Origin: Chloroflexota bacterium
Lineage (GTDB): Bacteria; Chloroflexota; Anaerolineae; Anaerolineales; Villigracilaceae
Assembly (NCBI GenBank): GCA_021414245.1
Contig: JAIOOU010000015.1
Span: 186,001-250,000, forward strand
DNA: 64,000 bases
Direction: 5' to 3'
In this document: positions 41,638 to 51,733 of the stretch, one piece after another
How the letters are laid out: each line of letters opens with the position of its first letter
Position numbering within the stretch: position 1 is the first letter of the stretch
Position numbers and translations under genes: made by a program
Notes under the pieces: model-generated
What the model was told of the DNA's origin: nothing
Seen by the model: the letters and a program-made list of their open reading frames with translations, nothing else
The model's database searches: none

Positions 41638-41823
41638 TTTTCCTCCGAAATTTTTTATGGTTAAAAGCTAAAAGCGCATCTATCGTGCGCAAATGGAGGG
41701 TCATGATCAGGCCGAAAAAATCCGGCAAACTTGAGATACATCTTTAACATTGTAAAAGCAAACAGAAAGCGGGTCAATGTCATTATTTTTAGAGAGTACA
41801 ATTGGGGGAGGCAAGGAGAAAAT

Positions 41824-42717
41824 ATGACCGTTGAAGGTACTCATAACCTGTGGGGGGACTTACACCGCCCGGATTTCACTCCAAAACAGGCGGATTTCAG
41901 CGTGCTCGGCCTTCCGTATGATGGACTGGCCAGCGCCCGAAAAGGAGCGGCGCTTGCCCCTGAACGCCTGCGCTACTGGTCACGCCATTTGACCCCCTTT
42001 AGTGAAGACCGGACCCGTCTGAAGGATATGACCATCTGTGATCTGGGGGATATTCCGATCAACGACCCCGCTCTGGACTATGTGCTGGTACGCCAAAAGG
42101 TGGCCTCCCTGCCCAACATCCCAATTTTGCTGGGCGGCGATCACTCCGTCAGCATCCCGATCCTTCAGGGTCAGCGCGAACGCTACGCGGGGCAACGCCT
42201 CGGGATTTTATGGATCGATGCTCATCCGGATCTGTGCGATGAATTCGACGGCTCACGCCTGTCCCATGCCTCGGTCATGCGGCGCGCACTTGAGGCGGGA
42301 ATTGAACCCCACGATGTCTGCATGGTGGGCGTGCGTTCCTGGGAGGATCAGGAGATCGACCTGATCGAAAACAGCGGCATCCATGTCTACACCGCGGCGG
42401 ATGTTGCCGAGCGCGGAATGCGAAAGGTTGCCGACAGCGTTCGCAACATCCTGAACGATTGCGACGTGATCCATATTTCCCTCGATATTGACTGCCTCGA
42501 CCCCTCCGCCGCACCCGGCACCGGCATTCCCGAATTCGGCGGATTGACTTCGCGCGATGTTTTAACCCTGCTGAAATCCATGCAGGGTCTGCCGCTGGCC
42601 GGCCTGGATGTGGTTGAGATCGCGCCCCCGCTTGACCCCTCGGAAGCCACGGTCTTTGCTGGCCTAAAAATCATCATGGAGTTCATCGCGGTCATTGCAC
42701 GTGACAGGCAAAAATAA
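41824..42717 (+). CDS. speB: Agmatinase/arginase family ureohydrolase
   Basis: 297 residues from ATG 41824 with AAGGAGAA; TACAAT at 41797 is a possible -10. Binuclear manganese ligands are all present: H107 in GGDHS, D132/H134/D136 in IDAHPDL, D221/D223 in LDIDCLDP. Agmatinases split agmatine into putrescine and urea; the family also includes arginase, formiminoglutamase and guanidine-base hydrolases, so the substrate is not certain. It is the first gene of a run of closely packed genes continuing into the ole-like cluster, and lies opposite kamA. Confidence 0.85.
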   Translation: MTVEGTHNLWGDLHRPDFTPKQADFSVLGLPYDGLASARKGAALAPERLRYWSRHLTPFSEDRTRLKDMTICDLGDIPINDPALDYVLVRQKVASLPNIPILLGGDHSVSIPILQGQRERYAGQRLGILWIDAHPDLCDEFDGSRLSHASVMRRALEAGIEPHDVCMVGVRSWEDQEIDLIENSGIHVYTAADVAERGMRKVADSVRNILNDCDVIHISLDIDCLDPSAAPGTGIPEFGGLTSRDVLTLLKSMQGLPLAGLDVVEIAPPLDPSEATVFAGLKIIMEFIAVIARDRQK

Positions 42718-42725
42718 GGTTCATT

Positions 42726-43031
42726 ATGGAAATCAAACTGGACGAACTTAAAATTACAAACAACGAAGCCGAAAGGCGTTTTGAGGTTTCGGTAAATGGA
42801 CTGCCATCCAAGCTGGATTACATTCTGGACAAGGACACTTTTGTCATCACCCACGTGGGCGTGCATCCCGATCTGCGCGGAATGGGTCTGGCGGGGAAAT
42901 TGACCGAGGTCAGTCTTGAATTTGCAAAAGCAAGATCCCTGAGGGTCATCCCGATGTGTTCCTATGCGGCAGCATATATTCGCAGAAATCCAAAATATGC
43001 TGACCTGATAAAGGCCCACCCGGAAGCATGA
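42726..43031 (+). CDS. Small GNAT-family N-acetyltransferase (YjdJ/COG2388 type)
   Basis: 101 residues. FVITHVGVHPDLRGMGLAGKLTE carries the acetyl-CoA pyrophosphate loop (R/Q-x-x-G-x-G/A) and IPMCSYAAAYIRRNPKYADL the C-terminal signature of the small one-domain GNAT group. Nine bases after the agmatinase-like gene, and its stop overlaps the OleC-like start by 4 bases, so it is cotranscribed with both. Acceptor substrate unknown. Confidence 0.88.
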   Translation: MEIKLDELKITNNEAERRFEVSVNGLPSKLDYILDKDTFVITHVGVHPDLRGMGLAGKLTEVSLEFAKARSLRVIPMCSYAAAYIRRNPKYADLIKAHPEA

Positions 43032-44602
43032 GCCCGGCAATCTGGAATAAATTCCAAGACAACGCCATCCGTCATCCGTCCAAAGCTGCGTTAATCTATT
43101 TTCAACAAGGGACCTGGAAAACGGTCACATATGGCCAATTGCTCAGGTCAAGCCAGCGCTTCGTCTCCGGACTTTCAGCCTGTCACCTGACCTCAGGCAT
43201 GCGCGCCGCCTTGATGACTCCACCCTCAGCCGACTTCTTCGCCCTGGCTCTGGCCATGCTCAACCTGGGCATCGTTCCGGTGATTTTTGACCCGGCCATC
43301 GGGCTAAAAAAAGCGGGGGAATGTCTCAACGAATCCCAACCTGAGATTTTTATCGGCAATCCGGTCACTCACACCTTGCGGATCATTTTCGGCTGGGGAC
43401 GGGGTTCGGTCAAGCACAACCTATCCATCGGCAAAATTCTTAACTCTTCAACGCAGGCCGCCCCCAGCGCGGACCGTGCTCCACAGCCCACAGACCCCGC
43501 CGCAGTCATCTACACCAGTGGCAGCACGGGTCTTCCCAAAGGCGCGCTGTATACCCGGGCAAATTTTGAAGCCCAGTTGAAGATGCTGAAGAACACCTTC
43601 AACATTACCGAGGATGAGATCGACCTGCCGGCCTTTCCACTCTATGCACTGATCGATGTTCTGCTCGGCGTCACCTCCGTCATTCCCGACATCACTTTCC
43701 CCGTTCCCAAAAACATAGACTCCGCACGGACCTTGTCCGCCATTCAGGAATATAAAGTCACGAACACCTTTGCCTCGCCTGTCGTATTGGACAAGCTTGC
43801 AAGCTATGGCGTGCCGCACAACATCAAACTTCCCAGCCTCAAACGGGTCATTACCGCCGGAGCGCCCGCAACCATTCAGCTGCAGGCACGCTTTCGAAAA
43901 CTCCTAAATGACAACACAGGACTTTTCGGGATTTACGGCGCCACGGAGACCCTTCCCATCGCAAAAGTGGAGAGCCGCGAGATATTCTCATTGAAGGAGA
44001 AAACTGGACGGGGCGCAGGGATCTGCCTGGGGAGACCCGTTGAAAACGTGAAAATCCGCATCATCAAGATCACGGATGAGCCCATCGGGGAATGGCGGGA
44101 TTCGCTGACAGTTGGATCCAATGTCGTCGGCGAGATCACAGTTCAAAGTCCGGCCACGACGCGCAGATACATCCGGCGCGAAGATGCGAATCGTTTATCC
44201 AAGATCAAGGACGGGGATGAGGTCATCCACCGCATGGGAGATGTGGGATACTTTGATGAACAGGGCCGCCTGTGGTACTGCGGCCGCAAATCCCATCGTG
44301 TGATCACACAGGAGCATGTCCTGTTTACGGAACAGATCGAGGGCATCTTCAATGCCCATCCGCTGGTCCATCGCAGCGCGCTGGTGGGCGTGGATGAAAA
44401 GCCCGTTTTATGGGTGGAGCTCGAACAAAAGGCGGCTCAAGAAAAGGTAAAGGGTGAATTGATGAAGCTGGCAAAAGACCACGCTCAGGCATCCAAAATA
44501 AAATCTTTTCTTTTCATGAAAAGGTTTCCAACCGACGTACGGCACAACTCCAAGATCATTCGCGAGGAATTAACCTTGATCACAAAAAGGAGATTGACAT
44601 GA
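43028..44602 (+). CDS. oleC: OleC-like beta-lactone synthetase (AMP-dependent synthetase family)
   Basis: 524 residues. OleC adenylates a beta-hydroxy acid and closes it to a beta-lactone. ANL family motifs: P-loop IYTSGSTGLPKGA (161-173), GIYGATETLP (301-310), HRMGDVGYFD (401-410) and CGRKSHRV (418-425). The last two, and the order ICLGRPVENVKIRII then EITVQSPATTRRY, are much closer to OleC than to ordinary acyl-CoA ligases. The start overlaps the GNAT stop (ATGA) and the stop overlaps the OleD-like start (ATGA). Sequence recognition is by eye; fatty acyl-CoA/AMP ligase is the alternative. Confidence 0.83.
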   Translation: MSPAIWNKFQDNAIRHPSKAALIYFQQGTWKTVTYGQLLRSSQRFVSGLSACHLTSGMRAALMTPPSADFFALALAMLNLGIVPVIFDPAIGLKKAGECLNESQPEIFIGNPVTHTLRIIFGWGRGSVKHNLSIGKILNSSTQAAPSADRAPQPTDPAAVIYTSGSTGLPKGALYTRANFEAQLKMLKNTFNITEDEIDLPAFPLYALIDVLLGVTSVIPDITFPVPKNIDSARTLSAIQEYKVTNTFASPVVLDKLASYGVPHNIKLPSLKRVITAGAPATIQLQARFRKLLNDNTGLFGIYGATETLPIAKVESREIFSLKEKTGRGAGICLGRPVENVKIRIIKITDEPIGEWRDSLTVGSNVVGEITVQSPATTRRYIRREDANRLSKIKDGDEVIHRMGDVGYFDEQGRLWYCGRKSHRVITQEHVLFTEQIEGIFNAHPLVHRSALVGVDEKPVLWVELEQKAAQEKVKGELMKLAKDHAQASKIKSFLFMKRFPTDVRHNSKIIREELTLITKRRLT

Positions 44603-45603
44603 AAGCTCTGGTCACCGGCGGGACCGGATTCCTTGGCGGGGCGCTCGCCCGCAGACTTCAGCGCCTGGGCTGGGAGGTCACAGCACTGGGCCGCAACGCC
44701 TCCAAAATAGAGGAGCTGAAAAGCGGGGGAATTCACGCACGGTCACTGGACTTGAAAAATCAGGAGGCGATGGCGGACGCCTGCCGCGATCAGGAGATCG
44801 TCTTTCACTGCGCCGCACTGCCTTCCCCCTGGGGTAATTTCGAGGCCTTTTATCAGGCAAACGTGATTGGAACCCGCAATGTCATTCGCGGATGTGAGCG
44901 GCACAAGGTCAAACGCCTGGTGTATGTCTCCACGCCCAGTATTTATTTTGATTACACCTCCCGAACCAATGTCAGGGAAACCGATCCGCTGCCTGAGCCG
45001 GTCAGCAATTACGCGGCTACGAAGATCCTTGCCGAGCAGGAACTTGACCAGGCCTTCGAGAAGGGACTGGCAACCATCGCGATCCGTCCGCGCGCGCTGT
45101 TTGGACCGGGCGATACCGTCATCTTTCCGCGCCTGATCCCGCGCCTGCAATCAGGCAGGCTGCCCATTTTGGGCGACGCAGAGAATGTCGTTGACCTCAC
45201 GTATATCGATAACGTCGTGGATGCGCTTCTGTTGTGTGCGGAATCGCCTGATAGTACGCTTGGAAAAAAATACAACATCTCGAATGGCGAGCCCATCAAG
45301 ATCTGGAAGCTGGTTGAGCGCATTTGCACGGAATTGAATTTGCCGCAGCCAAAGCGCAAGATCTCCTTCAGGACCGCATACGCGGCCGCGAGCGTGCTGG
45401 AGATGCTCTACACGCTCATCCCGACCCATCCAGAGCCACCCCTCACGCGCATCTCCGTCAGCATGATGGCCAACAGCACCACCCTGGATATCACGGCCGC
45501 AAAACAGGAACTCGGGTACCAACCCAAAGTTTCCGTGGATGAAGGCTTTGATAAATTCATGCAATGGTGGAAGAAAGCAAATCAAGGCCGCGAAAAACCA
45601 TGA
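44599..45603 (+). CDS. oleD: OleD-like NAD(P)-dependent 2-alkyl-3-ketoacid reductase (extended SDR)
   Basis: 334 residues. Extended short-chain dehydrogenase: NAD(P) motif VTGGTGFLGG (5-14), FHCAALPSPWGNFEAF, catalytic Ser in YVSTPSIYF (about S111-S114), Tyr138 and Lys142 in NYAATK. In the ole pathway OleD reduces the 2-alkyl-3-keto acid made by OleA to the beta-hydroxy acid used by OleC. The position directly after oleC with a 4-base overlap supports that role; as a lone gene it would be called an NAD-dependent epimerase/dehydratase. The next gene overlaps by 4 bases. Confidence 0.8.
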   Translation: MKALVTGGTGFLGGALARRLQRLGWEVTALGRNASKIEELKSGGIHARSLDLKNQEAMADACRDQEIVFHCAALPSPWGNFEAFYQANVIGTRNVIRGCERHKVKRLVYVSTPSIYFDYTSRTNVRETDPLPEPVSNYAATKILAEQELDQAFEKGLATIAIRPRALFGPGDTVIFPRLIPRLQSGRLPILGDAENVVDLTYIDNVVDALLLCAESPDSTLGKKYNISNGEPIKIWKLVERICTELNLPQPKRKISFRTAYAAASVLEMLYTLIPTHPEPPLTRISVSMMANSTTLDITAAKQELGYQPKVSVDEGFDKFMQWWKKANQGREKP

Positions 45604-46460
45604 AGATCAACATCCTCCACGCAGGCTACTGTACGGCCCCCGAGCACATCGCCATTCATGGCGGACGCTGGCGCAGCATTCACTTTCCGGCCATGTTCGC
45701 GCTGCTGCAACACCCGCGCTTCGGTCTAATGCTTTTTGACACGGGCTATTCCCAGCGCTTCTTCGATGAGACCCGGAAATTCCCAAAACGGTTTTACCGC
45801 TGGATGACCCCGGTCAGCCTGCATGAGGAGGACCTGGTAGTCAATCAACTCACGAACTTTGGGATCCGGCCCGCGGACATTTCCCACGTCTTCATCTCCC
45901 ACTTCCACGCGGACCACATCGCCTCCCTCCCCGATCTGGCCCGCTCCCGTTACGTGTATATGCCCCACGCTTTTGCACATCTCCGCACTTCACCTCCCTC
46001 CCAGGATATGAAACACGCCTTCCTGCGCGGACTGATCCCATCGGATTTTGATTCGCGCTCGCAAGTTGTCGATATGACCAGGCCCATTCTGCTCTCAAAC
46101 GAATATGCGCCCTTCAAAACCGGATTTGACCTGTTGGGGGACGGGTCGATCTTGGGTGTGGAACTTCCGGGACATGCCCATGGCCAAATGGGGCTCTTCG
46201 TCCGCGACGAAAACGGGAAACTATTTTTCTTTGTAGCGGATGCCGCCTGGCTGAAGCAAGCCATCATCGAGAACCGTCCCCCGCACAGGATCGCCAACCT
46301 GATTTTTTCAGACCCACAAGCCTATCGCGAGACTCTCGGGGAACTGCACACCTATCATCTTACCCATCCGGACACACAGGTGATCCCATCGCATTGCGAT
46401 GAGACCATCCGATCCCATGAAACCATACAGCGGCAAAATCCAAATGCAGCCCGGCGTTGA
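45600..46460 (+). CDS. Metallo-beta-lactamase-fold hydrolase
   Basis: 286 residues from ATG 45600, which overlaps the OleD-like stop. The metal site is complete: H101-x-H103-x-D105-H106 (SHFHADHIA), a later His in LPGHAHGQMG, Asp in FVADAAW and a terminal His in IPSHCDET. MBL enzymes open lactones, thioesters and similar bonds; the AHL-lactonase type looks similar. In this operon it stands where OleB (an alpha/beta hydrolase) would be expected, so it may act on a beta-lactone or thioester intermediate; that is inference. Cytoplasmic, no signal peptide. Confidence 0.85.
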   Translation: MKINILHAGYCTAPEHIAIHGGRWRSIHFPAMFALLQHPRFGLMLFDTGYSQRFFDETRKFPKRFYRWMTPVSLHEEDLVVNQLTNFGIRPADISHVFISHFHADHIASLPDLARSRYVYMPHAFAHLRTSPPSQDMKHAFLRGLIPSDFDSRSQVVDMTRPILLSNEYAPFKTGFDLLGDGSILGVELPGHAHGQMGLFVRDENGKLFFFVADAAWLKQAIIENRPPHRIANLIFSDPQAYRETLGELHTYHLTHPDTQVIPSHCDETIRSHETIQRQNPNAARR

Positions 46461-47586
46461 GCTTTTTACCCGCGAAAACATTCATTCCCTGAGCTGGCCC
46501 GCCACACTCGATGGAGAGTATGCGCGCAATTATCTCCTGCCGATGATGATGAATGGTCCCGAAATGTACATCAAAAATGTACACAACACCCGGTTGATGA
46601 TCGCCAGAGTGGACGATGTCATCATCCCCCTCAGCCTGTCAGATTTTCACCCGCAGAACACCTACACCGTATCCCCATACAGTCACTACGTCTCCTATGG
46701 CGGATATGAAGAAGTAAAACACCTCAACAACCCGCTTCTTGAAGCATTCATCAGAGCGATCATGCACCCAGTCGCCCGGTACTTCCGCAGCGCGGACCTC
46801 GACAAGGTCGTATACGTTAACAATTACCTGCTTTCGACGAATCTATATCCGTCAGTAAGCAGCGGGCAGCTGTCGGTGTTGAGTGAAGCGCTGCCGGGCT
46901 GGTTCCCCGACCGGGCCATCGTGTTCAGATCCATCGACGCAAGGAAAAATCCGCAGCTGCTGGACATCCTGAATCAAAAGGAATATGAGCCGGTGTTGAG
47001 TCGGCAGGTCTGGTATATGGATCCGCAGGAGGCCAGCCATACCCGACAATACAAGGAGGATGTACGCGTGCTTCGGAAACACGGGTATCAGATCGTGGAC
47101 GGGGCGGGACTTTCGGACGACGAACTCGCACGTTGTCTGGATCTATACAATCTGTTGTATCTGGAAAAATATTCCTTTTACAATCCGCAGTTCACGCTTG
47201 AATTCATGAAACTCGCACGCGACCGGGAGATCCTGCATTTGCGCGCGTTGAAACGCAATGGAAGGATCAATGCGGTCATGGGATTCTTCGTCCGCAACGG
47301 CGCAATGACCCAGCCTCTCTTCGGTTATGACACCAGCCTTCCGCAGGAAGAGGGACTCTACCGTTTACTAACATTGATCACCTTGCAGGAGGGCCTGCTG
47401 CGAAATCTGCTCGTGCATGCCAGCGGAGGTGTGGGAAAATTCAAAAAGGTGCGCGGCGGGAGGTCTGTGATTGAGTACAATGCCGTATTCTCGAAACACC
47501 TGCCCGTGCGGCGGCGGAGGCCCTGGCAATTGATCCGGGCAATTTCAAGCTATGCGATCCCATATTTTCAGAAGATGGATTTTTAA
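46417..47586 (+). CDS. GNAT-like acyltransferase of the ole-like operon
   Basis: About 390 residues. The C-terminal half (LARDREILHLRALKRNGRINAVMGFFVRNGAMTQPL, then YRLLTLITLQEGLLRN) resembles GNAT/FemAB-like acyl-CoA N-acyltransferase folds, with a soluble N-terminal half of unknown fold. The start is uncertain (46399, 46417 or 46444); all overlap the MBL gene by 17-62 bases and none has a clear ribosome site, so it is translationally coupled. It is in the middle of the cluster, so it probably modifies or transfers the product, perhaps onto an amine. No strong family match recognised. Confidence 0.7.
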   Translation: MKPYSGKIQMQPGVELFTRENIHSLSWPATLDGEYARNYLLPMMMNGPEMYIKNVHNTRLMIARVDDVIIPLSLSDFHPQNTYTVSPYSHYVSYGGYEEVKHLNNPLLEAFIRAIMHPVARYFRSADLDKVVYVNNYLLSTNLYPSVSSGQLSVLSEALPGWFPDRAIVFRSIDARKNPQLLDILNQKEYEPVLSRQVWYMDPQEASHTRQYKEDVRVLRKHGYQIVDGAGLSDDELARCLDLYNLLYLEKYSFYNPQFTLEFMKLARDREILHLRALKRNGRINAVMGFFVRNGAMTQPLFGYDTSLPQEEGLYRLLTLITLQEGLLRNLLVHASGGVGKFKKVRGGRSVIEYNAVFSKHLPVRRRRPWQLIRAISSYAIPYFQKMDF

Positions 47587-47610
47587 GCATGTTGAATTTC
47601 AGGAGATATT

Positions 47611-48606
47611 ATGCAAGTTAACTTACCTTTAAAAATCATCGGGCTGGGACGATATCTGCCAAAGCGCATCGTTCCGAGCTCGGAACTTGAAACCATGTGC
47701 GGGGTCCCGGCCGGCTGGGTGGAACGACGCAACGGCGTGCGTGAGCGCAGATGGGTGACCGATGAGACTTCCTCGTTCATGTCCGCGCAGGCGGCACGCG
47801 AAGCCCTGCAGGAGGCGAAACTAAAACCGAATCAGATCGATCTGATCATCAATGCTTCAGGCACCGGCGAACAGGCCATCCCGGATACAGGCGCGTTGAT
47901 CCAGCGTCAACTCGGGCTGGGGAATTCGGGCATTCCAGCCATGACCGTGCATACCACCTGCCTGAGTTTCGTGGCGGGCATGGATGTGGCTGCAAATTTT
48001 CTGCAGACCGGAAGATACAAAAACATTTTGATCGCAAGCTGTGACATCGCCTCGTGCGGCATCAACCCGAAGGAACCGGAATCCGCGTCGCTGGTCGGGG
48101 ATGCGGCGGCGGCCGTGGTGGTGACCCGTTCCACGGACGGCGATCGATCCATGGTCCACCACGCGCATTTCAAGACCTACGGCGAGGGGGCCTATCTGAC
48201 CGCGATCATGGGCGGAGGTTCGGCACATCATCCGCGCTTCCAAGGCCATAAACCCGAGGACGACCTCTTCCACATGGATGGCCCCGCCGTACTGCGCATG
48301 GTGCGCGGGATCGCCGCGGATTTCCTGGAGGAACTGTATCCCGGACTTTCAAAAAGTCTGGTGGACATCGACGTGGTCGTGCCGCATCAAGCCAGCAAGG
48401 TCGGCTTGTTAATGCTCGAACGCTTTGGCTGGCCCGGCAAAAAGATCATGAGCACCCTCGAAACCCTGGGAAATTGCGTGGCCGCCTCCATTCCCGCGAC
48501 GCTCTACCAGGCTGTACGGGACGGCAATATTCAGCGCGGCCAAAAAGTACTCATCGCCGGTACCGGAGCGGGACTATCCATTGGCGGACTGGTATTAACG
48601 TTTTGA
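47611..48606 (+). CDS. oleA: OleA / KAS III-like condensing enzyme (thiolase superfamily)
   Basis: 331 residues. Cys117 (HTTCLSF), His259 (VPHQAS) and Asn288 (GNCVAASIP) form the KAS III catalytic triad. The Cys-to-His distance of 142 equals that of Xanthomonas OleA (C143, H285) and exceeds that of FabH (C112, H244). OleA joins two acyl-CoAs head to head to a 2-alkyl-3-keto acid; KAS III starts fatty acid synthesis. Membership in an operon with OleC- and OleD-like genes favours OleA. AGGAGAT precedes the ATG. A role in a different condensation, for example with an ACP, is possible. Confidence 0.78.
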   Translation: MQVNLPLKIIGLGRYLPKRIVPSSELETMCGVPAGWVERRNGVRERRWVTDETSSFMSAQAAREALQEAKLKPNQIDLIINASGTGEQAIPDTGALIQRQLGLGNSGIPAMTVHTTCLSFVAGMDVAANFLQTGRYKNILIASCDIASCGINPKEPESASLVGDAAAAVVVTRSTDGDRSMVHHAHFKTYGEGAYLTAIMGGGSAHHPRFQGHKPEDDLFHMDGPAVLRMVRGIAADFLEELYPGLSKSLVDIDVVVPHQASKVGLLMLERFGWPGKKIMSTLETLGNCVAASIPATLYQAVRDGNIQRGQKVLIAGTGAGLSIGGLVLTF

Positions 48607-48657
48607 TGTCATTGCGGGCATGTTATTTCGCACAATCTCCTGATATGATAAAAGGAT

Positions 48658-49845
48658 ATGGCTAGGATCCTCCTGACCGGTGGGCGCGCGCCCGCCACGC
48701 TTGAACTTGCCCGCGCATTCCACCGCGCAGGTCACACCATTTTCATGGCGGAGAGTTTGCGTGGACATTTGTCCCGGCCAAGCAATGTGATCAAAAGGAA
48801 TTTCCTGGTGCCGCCGCCGCGCCAGCAACCGGTCAATTTCATCAATGCACTCAAGGCCATCATCGTTGAAAATAAAATAGACATGCTCGTCCCGACCTGC
48901 GAGGAAGTCTTCTATGTGGCCATGGGCCGTGAAAAGCTGCCCTGTTTGGTCTTTGTCGACAGCATCAACAAGTTGAACGATCTTCACAACAAATGGAATT
49001 TCGTGGTCAATGCCGTCGGGCATGAACTGTTCATTCCCGAGACCATGCTGATCAAAAATCAGGATGACCTGCTGCATGCCTATTCCCAGTGGCGCCAGCT
49101 GGTCATCAAGCCTGTCTACTCGCGCTTCGCCACGCGGACCCTGATCCGGCCCACGCTTAAACAGGCCATGTCCACCCTGAAGTTCAACACGAAATCCGCA
49201 TGGATCGCGCAGGAATATATCCAGGGAAACCAGATCTGCACCTACAGCATCTGCCTGAACGGGCGCATCACCGCGCATGCAGCCTATCCCTCCACCTTCA
49301 CTGCGGGACAGGGCGCGGCGATTGCCTTTAAATCCGTCAACCGTCCCGAGATCTTCAAATGGATCAAGACCTTCGTGGAAAAGAATTCCTTTACCGGCCA
49401 GATCGCATTTGACTTTATTGAGGCGCCGGACGGTCTGTTGTATGCGCTTGAATGCAATCCCCGCACCACCAGCGGCGCACACCTGCTCGCCTCGCATCCC
49501 AACTTCTTTGAAGCCTTCATCAACCCGAACATCCTGAGCATCCTTCCCCAAAAAAACCATTCCGCCATGCTGGGCACCGCAATGATTTCCTATGGGCTGG
49601 TCGACGCCTTCAAGAGAAAAAAACTCCGCGACTGGTTTATGACCTTTCTGACCAGCAAGGATGTCATCTTTGATATCCGCGACCCCCTGCCCTATCTGCT
49701 TCAATTCAGGGGCATTTGGACATATCTGATGCTCGCGCGTGCGCAGAAGATCACCGCATTGGAAGCTTCCACGTTCGATATAGAGTGGAATGGGGAGAGT
49801 GTGGATTTCGAGGAGAAAACCTCGCCACGATCAGCACAAACATAA
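48658..49845 (+). CDS. ATP-grasp domain ligase
   Basis: 395 residues. The N-terminal Rossmann-like preATP-grasp part (RILLTGGRAPATLELARAFHRAGH) is followed by the ATP-grasp core: LVIKPVYSRFATRTLI, IAQEYIQGNQICTYSICLNGRI and the metal-binding IAFDFIEAPDGLLYALECNPRTTSG. Such enzymes form an amide or ester from a carboxylate through an acyl phosphate. It is the last gene of the ole-like run, 52 bases after oleA, with its own TATGAT box eight bases before the ATG and no good Shine-Dalgarno. It could join an amine to the pathway product. Substrates unknown. Confidence 0.85.
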   Translation: MARILLTGGRAPATLELARAFHRAGHTIFMAESLRGHLSRPSNVIKRNFLVPPPRQQPVNFINALKAIIVENKIDMLVPTCEEVFYVAMGREKLPCLVFVDSINKLNDLHNKWNFVVNAVGHELFIPETMLIKNQDDLLHAYSQWRQLVIKPVYSRFATRTLIRPTLKQAMSTLKFNTKSAWIAQEYIQGNQICTYSICLNGRITAHAAYPSTFTAGQGAAIAFKSVNRPEIFKWIKTFVEKNSFTGQIAFDFIEAPDGLLYALECNPRTTSGAHLLASHPNFFEAFINPNILSILPQKNHSAMLGTAMISYGLVDAFKRKKLRDWFMTFLTSKDVIFDIRDPLPYLLQFRGIWTYLMLARAQKITALEASTFDIEWNGESVDFEEKTSPRSAQT

Positions 49846-49860
49846 GATATCAGAAAACAA

Positions 49861-49895
49861 AAAAGAACACATCCTGAATGGATGTGTTCTTTTTT
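49861..49895. terminator. Bidirectional intrinsic terminator
   Basis: Perfect 14-bp inverted repeat (AAAAGAACACATCC and complement), 5-base loop, T-run; serves the ATP-grasp gene on plus and the tRNA-Ser(GCU) gene on minus. Confidence 0.93.
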
Positions 49896-49896
49896 G

Positions 49897-49988
49897 TGGC
49901 GGGGAGGGCGGGATTCGAACCCGCGACCGGTTTTAAAGCCGGCACTCACTTAGCAGGCGAGCCCATTCAGCCACTCTGGCACCTCCCC
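49897..49988 (-). tRNA. tRNA-Ser (anticodon GCU)
   Basis: 92 bases with encoded CCA. Acceptor GGGGAGG pairs CCTCCCC, the anticodon loop CTGCTAA reads AGC/AGU, the long variable arm contains GCCGGCTTTAAAACCGGT, and the T-arm is GCGGGTTCGAATCCCGC. All arms fit a class II tRNA. Confidence 0.96.
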
Positions 49989-50069
49989 AGTTTTTTGTAG
50001 TAGCGACTTTTATTCTGCGGCGAGTCGCACAAGGACAGTTGCTAAAGCTGTCACTACGGATATTTCGCC

Positions 50070-50157
50070 TGGCGGAGGGGGTGGGATTCGAACCCACGTT
50101 GGTGTGACCCAAACATGTTTTCAAGACATGCGCCATCGGCCGCTCGGCCACCCCTCC
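50070..50157 (-). tRNA. tRNA-Ser (anticodon UGA)
   Basis: 88 bases with encoded CCA. Acceptor GGAGGGG pairs CCCCTCC, the anticodon loop CTTGAAA reads UCN codons, the long variable arm contains TTGGGTCACACCAA, and the T-arm is GTGGGTTCGAATCCCAC. It lies 81 bases upstream of tRNA-Ser(GCU) on the same strand. The rest of 49846-50221 holds only terminator and promoter. Confidence 0.96.
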
Positions 50158-50221: not shown

Positions 50222-51733
50222 ATGGGACAACAAACGAAATATGATGTCATTGTCATTGGAGCGGGGATCGCCGGGCTGACTGCCGCGCTGCATCTGGTCG
50301 AACGCGGATTAAAGCCGTTGATCCTCGAAGCGGATGAACGCGTGGGCGGGCGTCTTTCAGGCGGGGAGGAAATAAAGATAAAGGACTGGAGCTTTCCCTC
50401 CGAACATGGCGTGCATGGCATCTGGTCCTCGTATGTGAATCTCAGGCACATGTTGAAACGGCACGGGGTCGTTTCGGAATTCGTCCCGGCCCGCGACGAG
50501 CAGTGGATCTATCGTACCGGCAATTCGGTGCGGCGCGTCCCGATCGGCAGGATGATCCGCGGAAGCATCATCCCCGCGCCTTTTCATTACATCCAGCTTT
50601 TCTTTTCAGCGCGCTTTTGGGGCATGTTAACCCTGCGCGACCTTTTATCGATCTTCAATGTCTGGTCCGTGCTGGTGATGGCCCTCGGCATTGACCCGTT
50701 TGTCGAGGACCAGCCGCTCGAAGGCTTGACCTTCGGAAAGGCGCTCAAAAACTGGGGACCTGCATTTCGTTCGCTATTCTTTGGTCTGACCCGAAACGGC
50801 CTGGCCACCGACCCCGACCAGGTCCCACTGGCGGGCTTCCTCGCCTTCCTGCGCTTCTACACGCTCATGCGCCGCGATGCCTGGGCATTTGAGTACCTTC
50901 CGGAAGGCGGCGGCCCGGTCTGCGAAAAACTATCCGCGAAGATCCTGGGACTCGGAGGCGAGATCAAATTCAAGTCCCGGGTGATGCGGATGGAAAAGAA
51001 TGGGGGTTGGATCGCACACTGGGAGCAGGATGGACTCCCCGGCAGTGACCATGCCCCCTTCATCATCCTCGCTTCTGACTCACCCGCAGCGGGCTCGATC
51101 ATCAAGAACAGCTTCCCTGCGGACAAATTCTTCTTCCCGCACGGGCTCGGCCACGCGGTGATCCGTTTGTGGTTTGACATCCAGCCCAGGCGCGGACCGG
51201 AGTCCGGCATGTTCAGCGGCGACTTCATCATGCATAATTTTTTCTGGCTGGAGAAAATTTACACGCCCTATAAACAATGGCACGAACAGACCGGCGGCTC
51301 GTGCATCGAGGTGCATGTCTACGGACCGCGCGAGGCGCTGGCCCAGCCGGATGCGATCCTGATCACCAATGTCATCACGGACCTGTACCGCGCCTTCCCC
51401 GAATTGAAAGGGCACTTGATCGTGCCGTATTTGCAGCGCAACGCAGCCACACACACCCTGCCGGAGATCGGCGCGCGCGGCACACATCTTGGGATCGAGA
51501 CACCCTGGGAAAATTTTTACTGCGCGGGAGATTGGGTGCGTCACGAAACGCCCGCCTTCTTTTTGGAACGCGCCTGTGTGACTGGCATGGAAGCCGCCAA
51601 TCGCGTGCTGACCGCGCGCGGATCGGAAACATGGGACATCAAATCCTCCCCGCCGCCTGAAGCGCTGGCCGCCTGGATCGAGAATTTGATGATGAAGGGT
51701 AGGAGGAATAGAAGGAAGAGGAGAATTATATAG
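50222..51733 (+). CDS. FAD-dependent oxidoreductase (amine oxidase / phytoene desaturase-like)
   Basis: 503 residues. The N-terminal dinucleotide-binding motif VIVIGAGIAGLTAALHL is followed by the ADERVGGRL segment (residues about 9-46), then FPSEHGVHGIW. The C-terminal FAD closure is WENFYCAGDWVRHETPAFFLERACVTGMEAANRVL. It belongs to the flavin amine oxidase/carotenoid desaturase superfamily, which dehydrogenates or isomerises amines and isoprenoids. No carotenoid gene is nearby to fix the substrate. A strong terminator follows. The C-terminus is very basic (KGRRNRRKRR), perhaps for membrane surface contact. Confidence 0.85.
   Translation: MGQQTKYDVIVIGAGIAGLTAALHLVERGLKPLILEADERVGGRLSGGEEIKIKDWSFPSEHGVHGIWSSYVNLRHMLKRHGVVSEFVPARDEQWIYRTGNSVRRVPIGRMIRGSIIPAPFHYIQLFFSARFWGMLTLRDLLSIFNVWSVLVMALGIDPFVEDQPLEGLTFGKALKNWGPAFRSLFFGLTRNGLATDPDQVPLAGFLAFLRFYTLMRRDAWAFEYLPEGGGPVCEKLSAKILGLGGEIKFKSRVMRMEKNGGWIAHWEQDGLPGSDHAPFIILASDSPAAGSIIKNSFPADKFFFPHGLGHAVIRLWFDIQPRRGPESGMFSGDFIMHNFFWLEKIYTPYKQWHEQTGGSCIEVHVYGPREALAQPDAILITNVITDLYRAFPELKGHLIVPYLQRNAATHTLPEIGARGTHLGIETPWENFYCAGDWVRHETPAFFLERACVTGMEAANRVLTARGSETWDIKSSPPPEALAAWIENLMMKGRRNRRKRRII

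Follow-up and report, generated by a model that had tools for sequence, protein, structure and literature searches.

A recurrent six-gene cassette of Chloroflexota, related to the ole pathway, with a possible role in making aminoacylated lipids

What is made by an operon in which an OleC-type ligase and an OleD-like reductase are encoded beside a metallo-beta-lactamase-fold (MBL) hydrolase, a GNAT-like transferase, a KAS III-type condensing enzyme and an ATP-grasp ligase? Six such genes lie in the 64,000-nucleotide stretch of Chloroflexota DNA analyzed here (the window). The original prediction described them as an ole-like operon without oleB, which may give either a beta-lactone or a product in which the opened lactone is joined to an amine or amino acid. 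To our knowledge, no product is known for any of these clusters, and we found no description of the cluster or its product in the open-licence literature.

Layout and recurrence of the gene set

All six genes appear in the ORF list as real, intact and closely packed plus-strand reading frames (Table 1), and catalytic motifs are retained in all six window proteins and in nearly all of their relatives. The gaps between successive ORFs as called are -4, -40, -62, +24 and +51, and a yjdJ-like gene upstream adjoins the cassette with a gap of -4. The MBL and GNAT-like ORFs as called span 45564-46460 and 46399-47586; N-termini of relatives (MKINILHAGYC... and MQP.ELFTREN..., respectively) indicate the starts at 45600, which gives a 4-base ATGA overlap, and 46444. 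Residue numbers of the GNAT-like protein, hereafter GN2, are counted from 46399.

Table 1. Features of the cassette and of its downstream flank, in window coordinates.
Feature	Position	Strand	Basis
ANL adenylate-forming enzyme, OleC/PRK09274 family, 524 aa	43028..44602	+	NF006754
OleD-like extended SDR reductase, 334 aa	44599..45603	+	NF042422, YxxxK
MBL-fold hydrolase, AHL-lactonase-like	45600..46460	+	PF00753, AttM-type, HxHxDH
Double-GNAT (Fem/MprF-like) transferase, GN2	46444..47586	+	AlphaFold2 model, fold neighbors, Phe-Lys
KAS III-type condensing enzyme, 331 aa; Cys117, His259, Asn288	47611..48606	+	PDB matches, residues, tree
ATP-grasp ligase, 395 aa	48658..49845	+	NF005315, model, ECNPR
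18-pair hairpin with A- and T-runs	49857..49897		terminator consensus scan

The hairpin separates the cassette from a convergent tRNA-Ser gene and is likely a two-way terminator. Terminator-like sites number 15 against 10.0 (sd 3.2) in shuffles, and this stem is by far the longest listed; the promoter scan found no excess (6 sites against 6.0 in shuffles). Two downstream features were considered as parts of the cassette and rejected. The pair of tRNA-Ser genes also precedes the FAD and Kbl genes in a cassette-free genome (G046) and was found in only 7 of 40 loci scanned, and the FAD oxidoreductase at 50222, used as a query, is present in none of 80 loci that carry the GNAT-like gene. The upstream speB-like and yjdJ-like genes were also set aside: they adjoin the cassette in just a few loci of Anaerolineae.

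Those 80 loci, the best 80 of 257, were fetched by the GNAT-like gene, so that the other five genes are what is tested; the gene-order profiles were made from the same loci, which favors detection. The identical six-gene order occurs in 22 of the 80 (Chloroflexota); a further 13 (Bacillota) show a second order that differs by one swapped gene. Among 301 Chloroflexota genomes drawn, 10 encode the GNAT-like protein, 28 the KAS and 9 both (Fisher p 1.3e-9); three fetched loci (L086, L098 and L103) probably represent the same genomes as G018, G269 and G064. The KAS was present in 19 of 20 genomes probed, which comprised 11 of the 18 GN2-only loci and 9 others, and in 14 of the 15 whose fetched GNAT locus was without it. 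It lies elsewhere in the genome for 10 of the 11 GN2-only loci and within the locus for 5 of the 9 others. OleC does not adjoin the other genes in some Anaerolineae loci (L082, L088, L093, L094, L095, L105 and L107). Flanks differ among the four relatives examined; flank genes named by eye in relatives include ETF, LacI-type and MFS genes.

Varying flanks in carriers might suggest genes that are unrelated and adjacent by accident, but the same six genes recur in two fixed orders in several phyla, and KAS and GNAT-like genes co-occur genome-wide. A constant order in 22 of 80 loci amid variable flanks, together with that co-occurrence, leads us to reject chance adjacency, the probability of which is practically negligible. 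The six genes belong together as a unit, and the co-occurrence in relatives on which the original prediction had made itself depend was found.

Comparison with ole enzymes

The condensing enzyme, termed OleA-like in the original prediction, is of the KAS III type (NF005541, 351 bits, below the cut-off of 402), and its best PDB matches are CorB (1.1e-94) and MxnB (8.2e-94), followed by a FabH-named structure (1.1e-49) and OleA 3fk5 (4e-17). The OleA pattern EPxx[AS]x(14,18)DxxNACL, with its catalytic Glu117 (PMC7158056), is matched by none of 73 KAS rows, 55 of them cassette rows including the window, and is fitted by three Chloroflexota OleA proteins used as a positive control. The residue before the proline is Ile in the window (AIPDT), and the remaining cassette rows and the module rows have either Ile or Leu there; CorB and MxnB have Val at the OleA Glu position. 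Lipstatin-type rows retain the Glu (FEPSF and VEPAI in the LstA/LstB-like proteins) and lack the whole pattern. The window KAS is ~25% identical to Chloroflexota OleA, and in a tree of rows other than CorB and MxnB the cassette proteins form a separate clade, split 97/92 from the LstA/OleA type. On these grounds we rejected an OleA identity.

CorB and MxnB, by far the nearest solved relatives, share with the cassette KAS both Cys-His-Asn and an aliphatic residue in place of the OleA Glu, and they give alpha-pyrones. The cassette enzyme might likewise join two beta-ketoacyl chains into a product that lactonises to an alpha-pyrone or related polyketide-like ring. CorB and MxnB serve polyketide clusters, however, whereas the operon holds no PKS gene and has a reductase and ligases instead; moreover, alpha-pyrone formation by such a KAS needs no reductase, ligase or ATP-grasp enzyme (PMC4901931). 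We regard this route as quite improbable.

The predicted OleD-like protein is present (NF042422, 287 bits against a cut-off of 580), with YxxxK in 48 of 48 rows and YAATK in the window, though in the tree it falls outside the starred group of ole and lst OleD proteins (95/90), and again outside when that group joins eight Chloroflexota F390-module reductases (99/97). Because the KAS is not OleA-like, the designation of the cassette as an ole-like operon is not upheld, and the placement of the reductase speaks against it as well.

The ligase scores 566 bits against NF006754 (cut-off 478) and, with the other scores below theirs, is the only cassette protein above an NCBIfam cut-off; it remains below two OleC equivalog cut-offs (496/900 and 487/850 bits). 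The A3 and YG.TE motifs are found in all 28 OleC-type rows. In the ANL tree, which leaves out rows L172, L177 and L176, 13 OleC rows from cassettes make up a clade with 99/99 support, apart from three FadD-type ligases of the same genome, and this starred clade lies in the part of the tree that holds ole and lst OleC. The placement of the two enzymes, by which the original prediction could have been refuted, gave a mixed picture: the KAS belongs with neither FabH nor OleA, and the ligase is of the OleC type rather than a plain acyl-CoA ligase. The predicted OleC-type protein stands.

An F390-synthetase-like enzyme (TIGR02304) takes the ANL slot in sister clusters, scoring 390-563 bits in the four tested against a cut-off of 251.9, and occurs together with OleC in none of the 80 loci; the genome of the window has no TIGR02304 match. 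Since KAS and OleC-type genes lie at separate places in several Chloroflexota genomes (G024, G061, G214, G222, G246, G260 and G267), this exclusion is valid for loci, not genomes. OleC looks like a late substitute in the ANL slot.

No OleB alpha/beta-hydrolase was found among the cassette genes by family search, in keeping with the original prediction, nor an OleB ortholog in the genome (98.25% complete). The comparison covered 20 of its 29 hydrolase loci, including the best match (L184), and a single OleB was also searched against the entire genome; 10 of the 29 Abhydrolase_1 matches, L184 not among them, were compared with NCBIfam as well. Four OleB proteins from Chloroflexota share 64-78% identity over about 282 residues, but nothing compared in this genome exceeds 39% identity to them across some 100 residues, or 25% across 278 (best 74 bits). 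A hydrolase-AMP ligase fusion of the same genome (L171, 827 aa) was rejected as an OleBC protein since its ligase half is FadD-type; by eye no oleA- or oleD-like ORF stands beside it, and the genome's only two ACP_syn_III matches lie elsewhere.

These results bear on the beta-lactone reading, in which two acyl-CoAs would be joined, reduced and closed to a lactone that either persists or, once the MBL enzyme has opened it, is linked to an amine. The OleC-type ligase apart from FadD, the OleD-like reductase and the lack of a detected OleB ortholog all agree with it, and oleACD clusters without oleB are known (PMC7064751). In-phylum oleABCD clusters (L238, L239 and L241) resemble the cassette in placing a thiolase-superfamily condensing enzyme beside an OleC-type ligase and an OleD-like SDR; the cassette differs in having no OleB, a KAS without the OleA Glu or pattern, and additional MBL, double-GNAT and ATP-grasp genes. 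Lipstatin-like clusters (L207 and L208), as oleACD beta-lactone clusters, share the absence of oleB and the OleC-type and OleD-like proteins, but have Glu-bearing LstA/LstB-like proteins, an NRPS and a formyltransferase, none of which the cassette has. Against a beta-lactone product stand the KAS, which lacks the Glu of LstA/LstB-like proteins and of pattern-matching OleA, the position of the reductase, and the different ANL family in the OleC slot of sister clusters, which weakens the reading; we judge it unlikely. The cassette is not an ole operon, though it is related to the ole pathway.

GN2, the MBL hydrolase and the ATP-grasp ligase

At 1e-3 GN2 matches nothing in Pfam, FemAB included, or in NCBIfam; a PDB search with its sequence yielded no entry with E of 10 or below, and one with its profile four unrelated entries (best E 0.19). 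Its AlphaFold2 model (pLDDT 92.3) has a double-GNAT fold. The nearest PDB entry is the aminoacyl-tRNA-dependent streptothricin-type peptide synthase Sbb17 (Z 18.7, rmsd 3.3, 257 aligned), and other aminoacyl-tRNA-dependent folds follow (FemX 6snr, Z 16.7; MprF, Z 16.2). Tandem GNATs independent of tRNA match lower (VipF 14.4, MAB_4324 14.1, mycothiol synthase 13.6). F348-K349 is invariant in 57 of 57 GN2 rows, with FK..RG in 78 of 79. A Phe-Lys pair also occurs in aminoacyl-tRNA-dependent transferases, the Lys329 of DhpH-C being preceded by Phe328 (PMC12945691); the catalytic lysines compared were FemX Lys305 and DhpH-C Lys329. hhalign aligns the GN2 Phe-Lys with the FemAB 'RFK' in a weak match (probability 1.1%, P 0.049), and the DhpH-C Asn325, four residues before the Lys, corresponds to Val345 in GN2.

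GN2 shares the double-GNAT fold with FemABX, MprF and streptothricin Sba18-type transferases, has a Phe-Lys motif that may correspond to theirs, and differs in its 10-13% identity to Fem-like transferases in the fold matches and in having no Pfam FemAB match. The tRNA-independent matches, the weak FemAB alignment and the unmatched DhpH-C Asn argue against tRNA dependence; on fold neighbors and motif, a candidate aminoacyl-tRNA-dependent transferase is nonetheless the best reading. In place of the peptidoglycan precursor of the Fem type, it probably acts on an acid or alcohol of lipid nature.

The ATP-grasp ligase (NF005315, 394 bits, below the cut-off of 406) has ECNPR in 51 of 51 rows. The nearest folds to its model (pLDDT 91.5) are GAR synthetase, PurK, PylC, L-amino acid ligases and biotin carboxylase, a generic match that points to no particular substrate. 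Fold matches of GN2 and this ligase appear to place the predicted amide-forming or amino-acid-adding step on firmer ground.

The MBL protein (PF00753; AHL-lactonase AttM type, 72 bits, below the cut-off of 390) carries HxHxDH in 51 of 51 rows. MBL-fold thioesterases are established, and a PQS-like signal pathway would use the same three enzyme types: an ANL enzyme activating a starter acid, a KAS III extending it and an MBL thioesterase, as in PqsA, PqsD/PqsBC and PqsE. Such a pathway leaves the OleD-like, GNAT and ATP-grasp genes without a role. Furthermore, no additional gene family common to most of the 80 loci was found, so no conserved receptor or regulator accompanies the cassette, and we hold a signal of this kind to be very unlikely.

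A four-gene core and a proposed pathway

The KAS, OleD-like and MBL proteins of the cassette have kin in a four-gene core completed by TIGR02304; the cassette differs from this core in its OleC-type ligase and in having GN2 and ATP-grasp genes in the same operon. Of 5,426 E. coli genomes, 671 (about one in eight) carry the core together with other lipid genes; there it adjoins PAP2 phosphatase, sterol-desaturase-family and acyl-CoA desaturase genes. It lies next to a glycosyltransferase gene in one Chloroflexota family, and with GNAT, Rieske and divergent ATP-grasp genes in Rhizobium. We found no published function for it in the open-licence literature. GNAT and ATP-grasp genes do not always adjoin the core, and relatives of the KAS are found in its absence (Priestia, L062-L064), so the products on which the modules act may be separable. 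On a stretch of a Pseudomonas amygdali megaplasmid, genes for a KAS, an SDR and an MBL protein accompany unnamed ones, and no F390-like gene is annotated there.

We tentatively favor, at somewhat less than even confidence, a single dedicated and patchily distributed pathway to an aminoacylated lipid, for which we infer all substrates and the order of steps. The CorB/MxnB-related KAS would load an acyl chain on Cys117 and, without a catalytic Glu, join it to another acyl thioester, probably a beta-keto one. The OleD-like SDR would reduce the keto group, and the MBL enzyme, as a thioesterase or lactonase, would release the carrier-bound acid. An ANL enzyme, of the OleC type here and F390-synthetase-like in sister clusters, would adenylate this acid and hand it on directly or via a beta-lactone. 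The double-GNAT transferase could then add an amino acid from aminoacyl-tRNA, and the ATP-grasp ligase form a further amide or ester bond.

A lipid pathway is suggested by the conserved gene sets in several phyla, the co-occurrence of KAS and GNAT-like genes, the retained catalytic motifs, the use of one of two ANL families at one slot, the fold and Phe-Lys of GN2, and the core beside lipid-tailoring genes. Loci without OleC, the generic ATP-grasp fold, and the separate occurrence of the core and of KAS relatives argue against it. With still less assurance, we propose that the product may belong to an undescribed class of lipids, in which chains that a CorB-like KAS has linked would be reduced to a branched beta-hydroxy (mycolate-like) acid, to which a tRNA-dependent Fem-like transferase and the ATP-grasp ligase would attach amino acids. 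Transfer would have carried the pathway into Chloroflexota, Bacillota and plasmids of the Rhizobium type, and roughly one in eight complete E. coli genomes would have the four-gene core alongside different tailoring genes.

If this is true, numerous sequenced bacteria have in common a pathway to a lipid or lipo-amino acid, the product of which is unreported in the open-licence literature, and a tRNA-dependent transferase in such a cluster would be an unexpected route to aminoacylated lipids. The interchange of OleC-type and F390-type enzymes at one step allows the purpose of OleC chemistry outside olefin synthesis to be tested directly, and the four-gene core in E. coli brings the question within reach of ordinary genetics.

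A conserved six-gene cassette

The cassette lies in a 3.87-Mb genome (98.25% complete; window on contig 14), and adjacent genes within it overlap or are separated by 51 bases or less. Most of the loci with the closest gene matches bear Anaerolineales or Chloroflexi titles. As originally predicted, the six genes belong together, and we regard it as nearly certain that they form one unit. Four relatives from the same family retain the order OleC-OleD-MBL-GN2-KAS-ATP-grasp between varying flanking genes, so that the cassette looks accessory and transferable (the MBL gene of one, G080, is absent from the ORF calls of this comparison and present in its locus L004). GN2, a double-GNAT protein without a Pfam family, occurs in 5 of the 17 listed genomes of the family, and the identical five carry KAS and OleC over the cut-off. 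Surveys of 301 genomes of the phylum, drawn in the same kind of way, detect GN2 in 10 and KAS (E <= 1e-60) in 28; nine of the ten GN2-bearing genomes hold KAS (Fisher p = 1.3e-9), the exception (G272) being 85% complete.

A strong hairpin separates the cassette from a convergent tRNA-Ser gene. The tRNA-Ser pair to which this gene belongs also adjoins the cassette in G080 and G018, as well as at 7 of 40 scanned loci, one of which is probably from G018; it precedes an FAD gene in G046, which has no cassette; we read it as a fixed landmark or an insertion spot. The speB-like gene, yjdJ-like gene and cassette are also closely spaced at three further loci (L074, L078, L079).

Scanning the GN2 alignment against one genome per species returned 257 relatives. 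Among the best 80 of these loci, profile detection finds the exact order of the window at 22 and the order KAS-ATPgrasp-OleD-MBL-X-GN2 at 13, X standing for an F390-synthetase-related protein (TIGR02304); 26 show a partial set, several interrupted by contig ends, 18 show GN2 alone, and none has OleC together with X near GN2. The X-bearing full sets of these 80 include Paenibacillus, Cohnella, Brevibacillus and Anaerosolibacter, and the partial sets include Anabaena and two more cyanobacterial records. One more locus, from an Anaerolineales MAG (L111), carries a full X-type set of six genes, arranged in a third order. KAS is held by 19 of 20 GN2 genomes probed, and lies elsewhere in 14 of 15 whose fetched locus was without it (41-59% identity). 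At many Paenibacillus loci (L115, L118, L119 and others) GN2 lies apart from the rest of the set, in a different neighborhood that these loci share (families 7-10); all nine such genomes probed have a KAS relative elsewhere (41-43% identity).

Of 20 further KAS loci in Chloroflexota, 10 have the complete four-gene core KAS-OleD-MBL-TIGR02304 (the F390-module), three (L062-L064) have KAS alone, and several end at contig edges. This core also occurs in Paracoccus, Ketogulonicigenium and E. coli, and in Rhizobium sp. BT03, there with a 'CoF synthetase' and accompanied by GNAT, Rieske and divergent ATP-grasp genes. The E. coli cluster, queried as the seven-gene stretch of the plasmid record L183 with matches over 80% or more of its length, is present in 671 of the 5,426 complete E. 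coli genomes and is chromosomal at 671 of 673 places; in one chromosome examined it lies between narI and tRNA-Tyr/purU. Because its KAS and OleD-like sequences sit on long branches, its kinship to the other clusters is less sure. In open-licence PubMed Central we came across no account of either the six-gene set or the core.

Coordinates of the cassette, its surroundings and comparison loci (L-numbers, fetched loci)
Feature	Location	Strand	Details
Six-gene cassette	43028-49845	+	OleC-type ANL, OleD-like SDR, MBL-fold hydrolase, GN2, KAS III, ATP-grasp ligase (ORF listing; Pfam/NCBIfam families)
speB-like (agmatinase/arginase family) and yjdJ-like GNAT genes	41731-43031		Lead into cassette; gaps 8 and -4 bases
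tRNA-Ser(gct)/tRNA-Ser(tga) pair	49897-50157		Adjoins cassette
E. coli cluster	L183:7977-14858; L209:2001-8882		KAS III, SDR, MBL, F390-synthetase-related, PAP2 phosphatase, sterol-desaturase family, acyl-CoA desaturase
Classical oleABCD operons, other Chloroflexota	L238:3675-10416; L239:3456-10435; L241:5951-10823		In-phylum controls
Rhizobium sp. BT03 plasmid	L270:6007-12984		KAS, SDR, MBL, 'CoF synthetase', GNAT, Rieske protein, divergent ATP-grasp gene
Chloroflexota family f33	L067:5669-11799		OleD-MBL-F390-glycosyltransferase-KAS-SDR; glycosyltransferase in the place GN2 has in other clusters
Priestia megaterium plasmid	L180:7998-11626		38%-identical KAS, then acyl carrier protein and MMPL transporter; without core genes
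Rhodococcus qingshengii plasmid, lipstatin-like	L207:4009-12676		KAS III, hypothetical in LstB place, OleC-type, OleD-like, NRPS, formyltransferase
Hydrolase-ligase fusion, own genome	L171:595-3075		827 aa

The condensing enzyme and its Ole-like partners

A PDB sequence search places the KAS of the window closest to CorB (1.1e-94) and to 4v2p (8.2e-94; entry title just 'ketosynthase'), which we take to be MxnB; the next chain, named FabH, scores 1.1e-49, and 3fk5, named '3-oxoacyl-synthase III' and presumably OleA, scores 4e-17. The enzyme retains Cys117, His259 and Asn288. A passage in PMC4578411 describes a glutamate supplied by the partner subunit in OleA and the photopyrone enzyme PpyS, replaced by valine in MxnB and CorB. 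At this position the alignment gives the KAS of the window an equally aliphatic residue, Ile, directly before Pro, and every other cassette and module KAS Ile or Leu, whereas lipstatin-like LstA and LstB have Glu. The OleA pattern as worded in a passage of PMC7158056 has no match among the 73 rows in the KAS alignment; it does match OleA of the three classical oleABCD operons. In a tree of cassette, F390-module, Priestia, FabH, OleA and LstA sequences, with CorB and MxnB left out, the cassette, module and one Priestia KAS form a single well-supported clade (97/97), separate from FabH as well as from the OleA-plus-LstA sequences. Judged by sequence, then, the cassette condensing enzyme is not OleA; of the original label 'OleA/KAS III-like', the OleA half falls, and the tree gives no placement with FabH either.

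For the ligase the original label, OleC-like, fits the tree: the 13 cassette OleC sequences form a well-supported clade in the ole/lipstatin OleC region, well removed from the three FadD-type ligases included from the same genome. The OleD-like sequences belong neither to the well-supported group of ole and lipstatin OleD nor to the larger group that this one forms with eight Chloroflexota F390-module reductases; the OleD of the window is 45-53% identical to Bacillota F390-cluster reductases versus 34-38% to ole OleD. Since the KAS of the F390-bearing L111 groups with the cassette sequences (support 100/99), OleC probably took the place of an F390-like enzyme among this subset of Chloroflexota. 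TIGR02304 has no match in the genome of the window, and the two families can coexist in one genome at separate places (e.g., G214). Their interchange indicates that the step of OleC is one another ANL enzyme can also do, namely carboxylic acid activation, which may or may not lead to a beta-lactone.

The lack of OleB noted for the operon appears to extend to the genome. A whole-genome search with one OleB, and direct comparison at 20 of the 29 Abhydrolase_1 matches, yielded no ortholog: the best hydrolase is 25% identical along 278 residues, or 39% along some 100, versus 64-78% among four Chloroflexota OleB proteins. No OleB-named NCBIfam model was matched by the 10 of 29 Abhydrolase_1 proteins run, from a library that may hold no such model. 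A fusion of an alpha/beta hydrolase with a FadD-type acyl-CoA ligase resembles OleBC in plan only.

GN2, the ATP-grasp ligase and a candidate pathway

The AlphaFold2 model of GN2 (57-row alignment, mean pLDDT 92.3) has as its nearest folds the aminoacyl-tRNA-dependent peptide synthases Sbb17 (Z 18.7) and Sba18 (Z 18.5), followed by FemX (16.7) and MprF (16.2); VipF (14.4), MAB_4324 (14.1), mycothiol synthase (13.6) and N-myristoyltransferase (12.9) rank lower, and Foldseek returns the same aminoacyl-tRNA-dependent group on top. GN2 is probably a tRNA-dependent enzyme. F348-K349 is invariant across the 57 rows, and the motif FK..RG is present in 78 of 79 sequences. The FemX (1ne9) alignment runs up to residue 379 of the model and 335 of the chain; by arithmetic rather than superposition, K349 and the catalytic Lys305 of FemX each lie 30 residues short of that end. 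Profile alignment to 15 Chloroflexota FemAB proteins also pairs RFK with KFK, at a probability of just 1.1%, and 46 of the 57 members give weak hits (E up to 1) to Pfam Acetyltransf_6.

The model of the ATP-grasp protein (41 rows, pLDDT 91.5) resembles GAR synthetase, PurK, PylC, L-amino acid ligases and biotin carboxylase, and all 51 sequences carry the ECNPR motif; the usual reading of such a protein would be a carboxylate-amine ligase.

A pathway may be sketched in which KAS would join two chains, the SDR reduce the joined product, the MBL enzyme release it and the ANL enzyme activate it, after which GN2 would deliver an amino acid from tRNA and the ATP-grasp ligase form a second bond. This whole reading, in which each of the six genes serves once, is tentative, its chance falling slightly short of even. 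Lipid genes adjoin the core in other bacteria, namely the PAP2 phosphatase, sterol-desaturase-family and acyl-CoA desaturase genes of E. coli, and one Chloroflexota family has a glycosyltransferase and an SDR beside it; these lipid-gene neighbors support a lipid as the product of the pathway.
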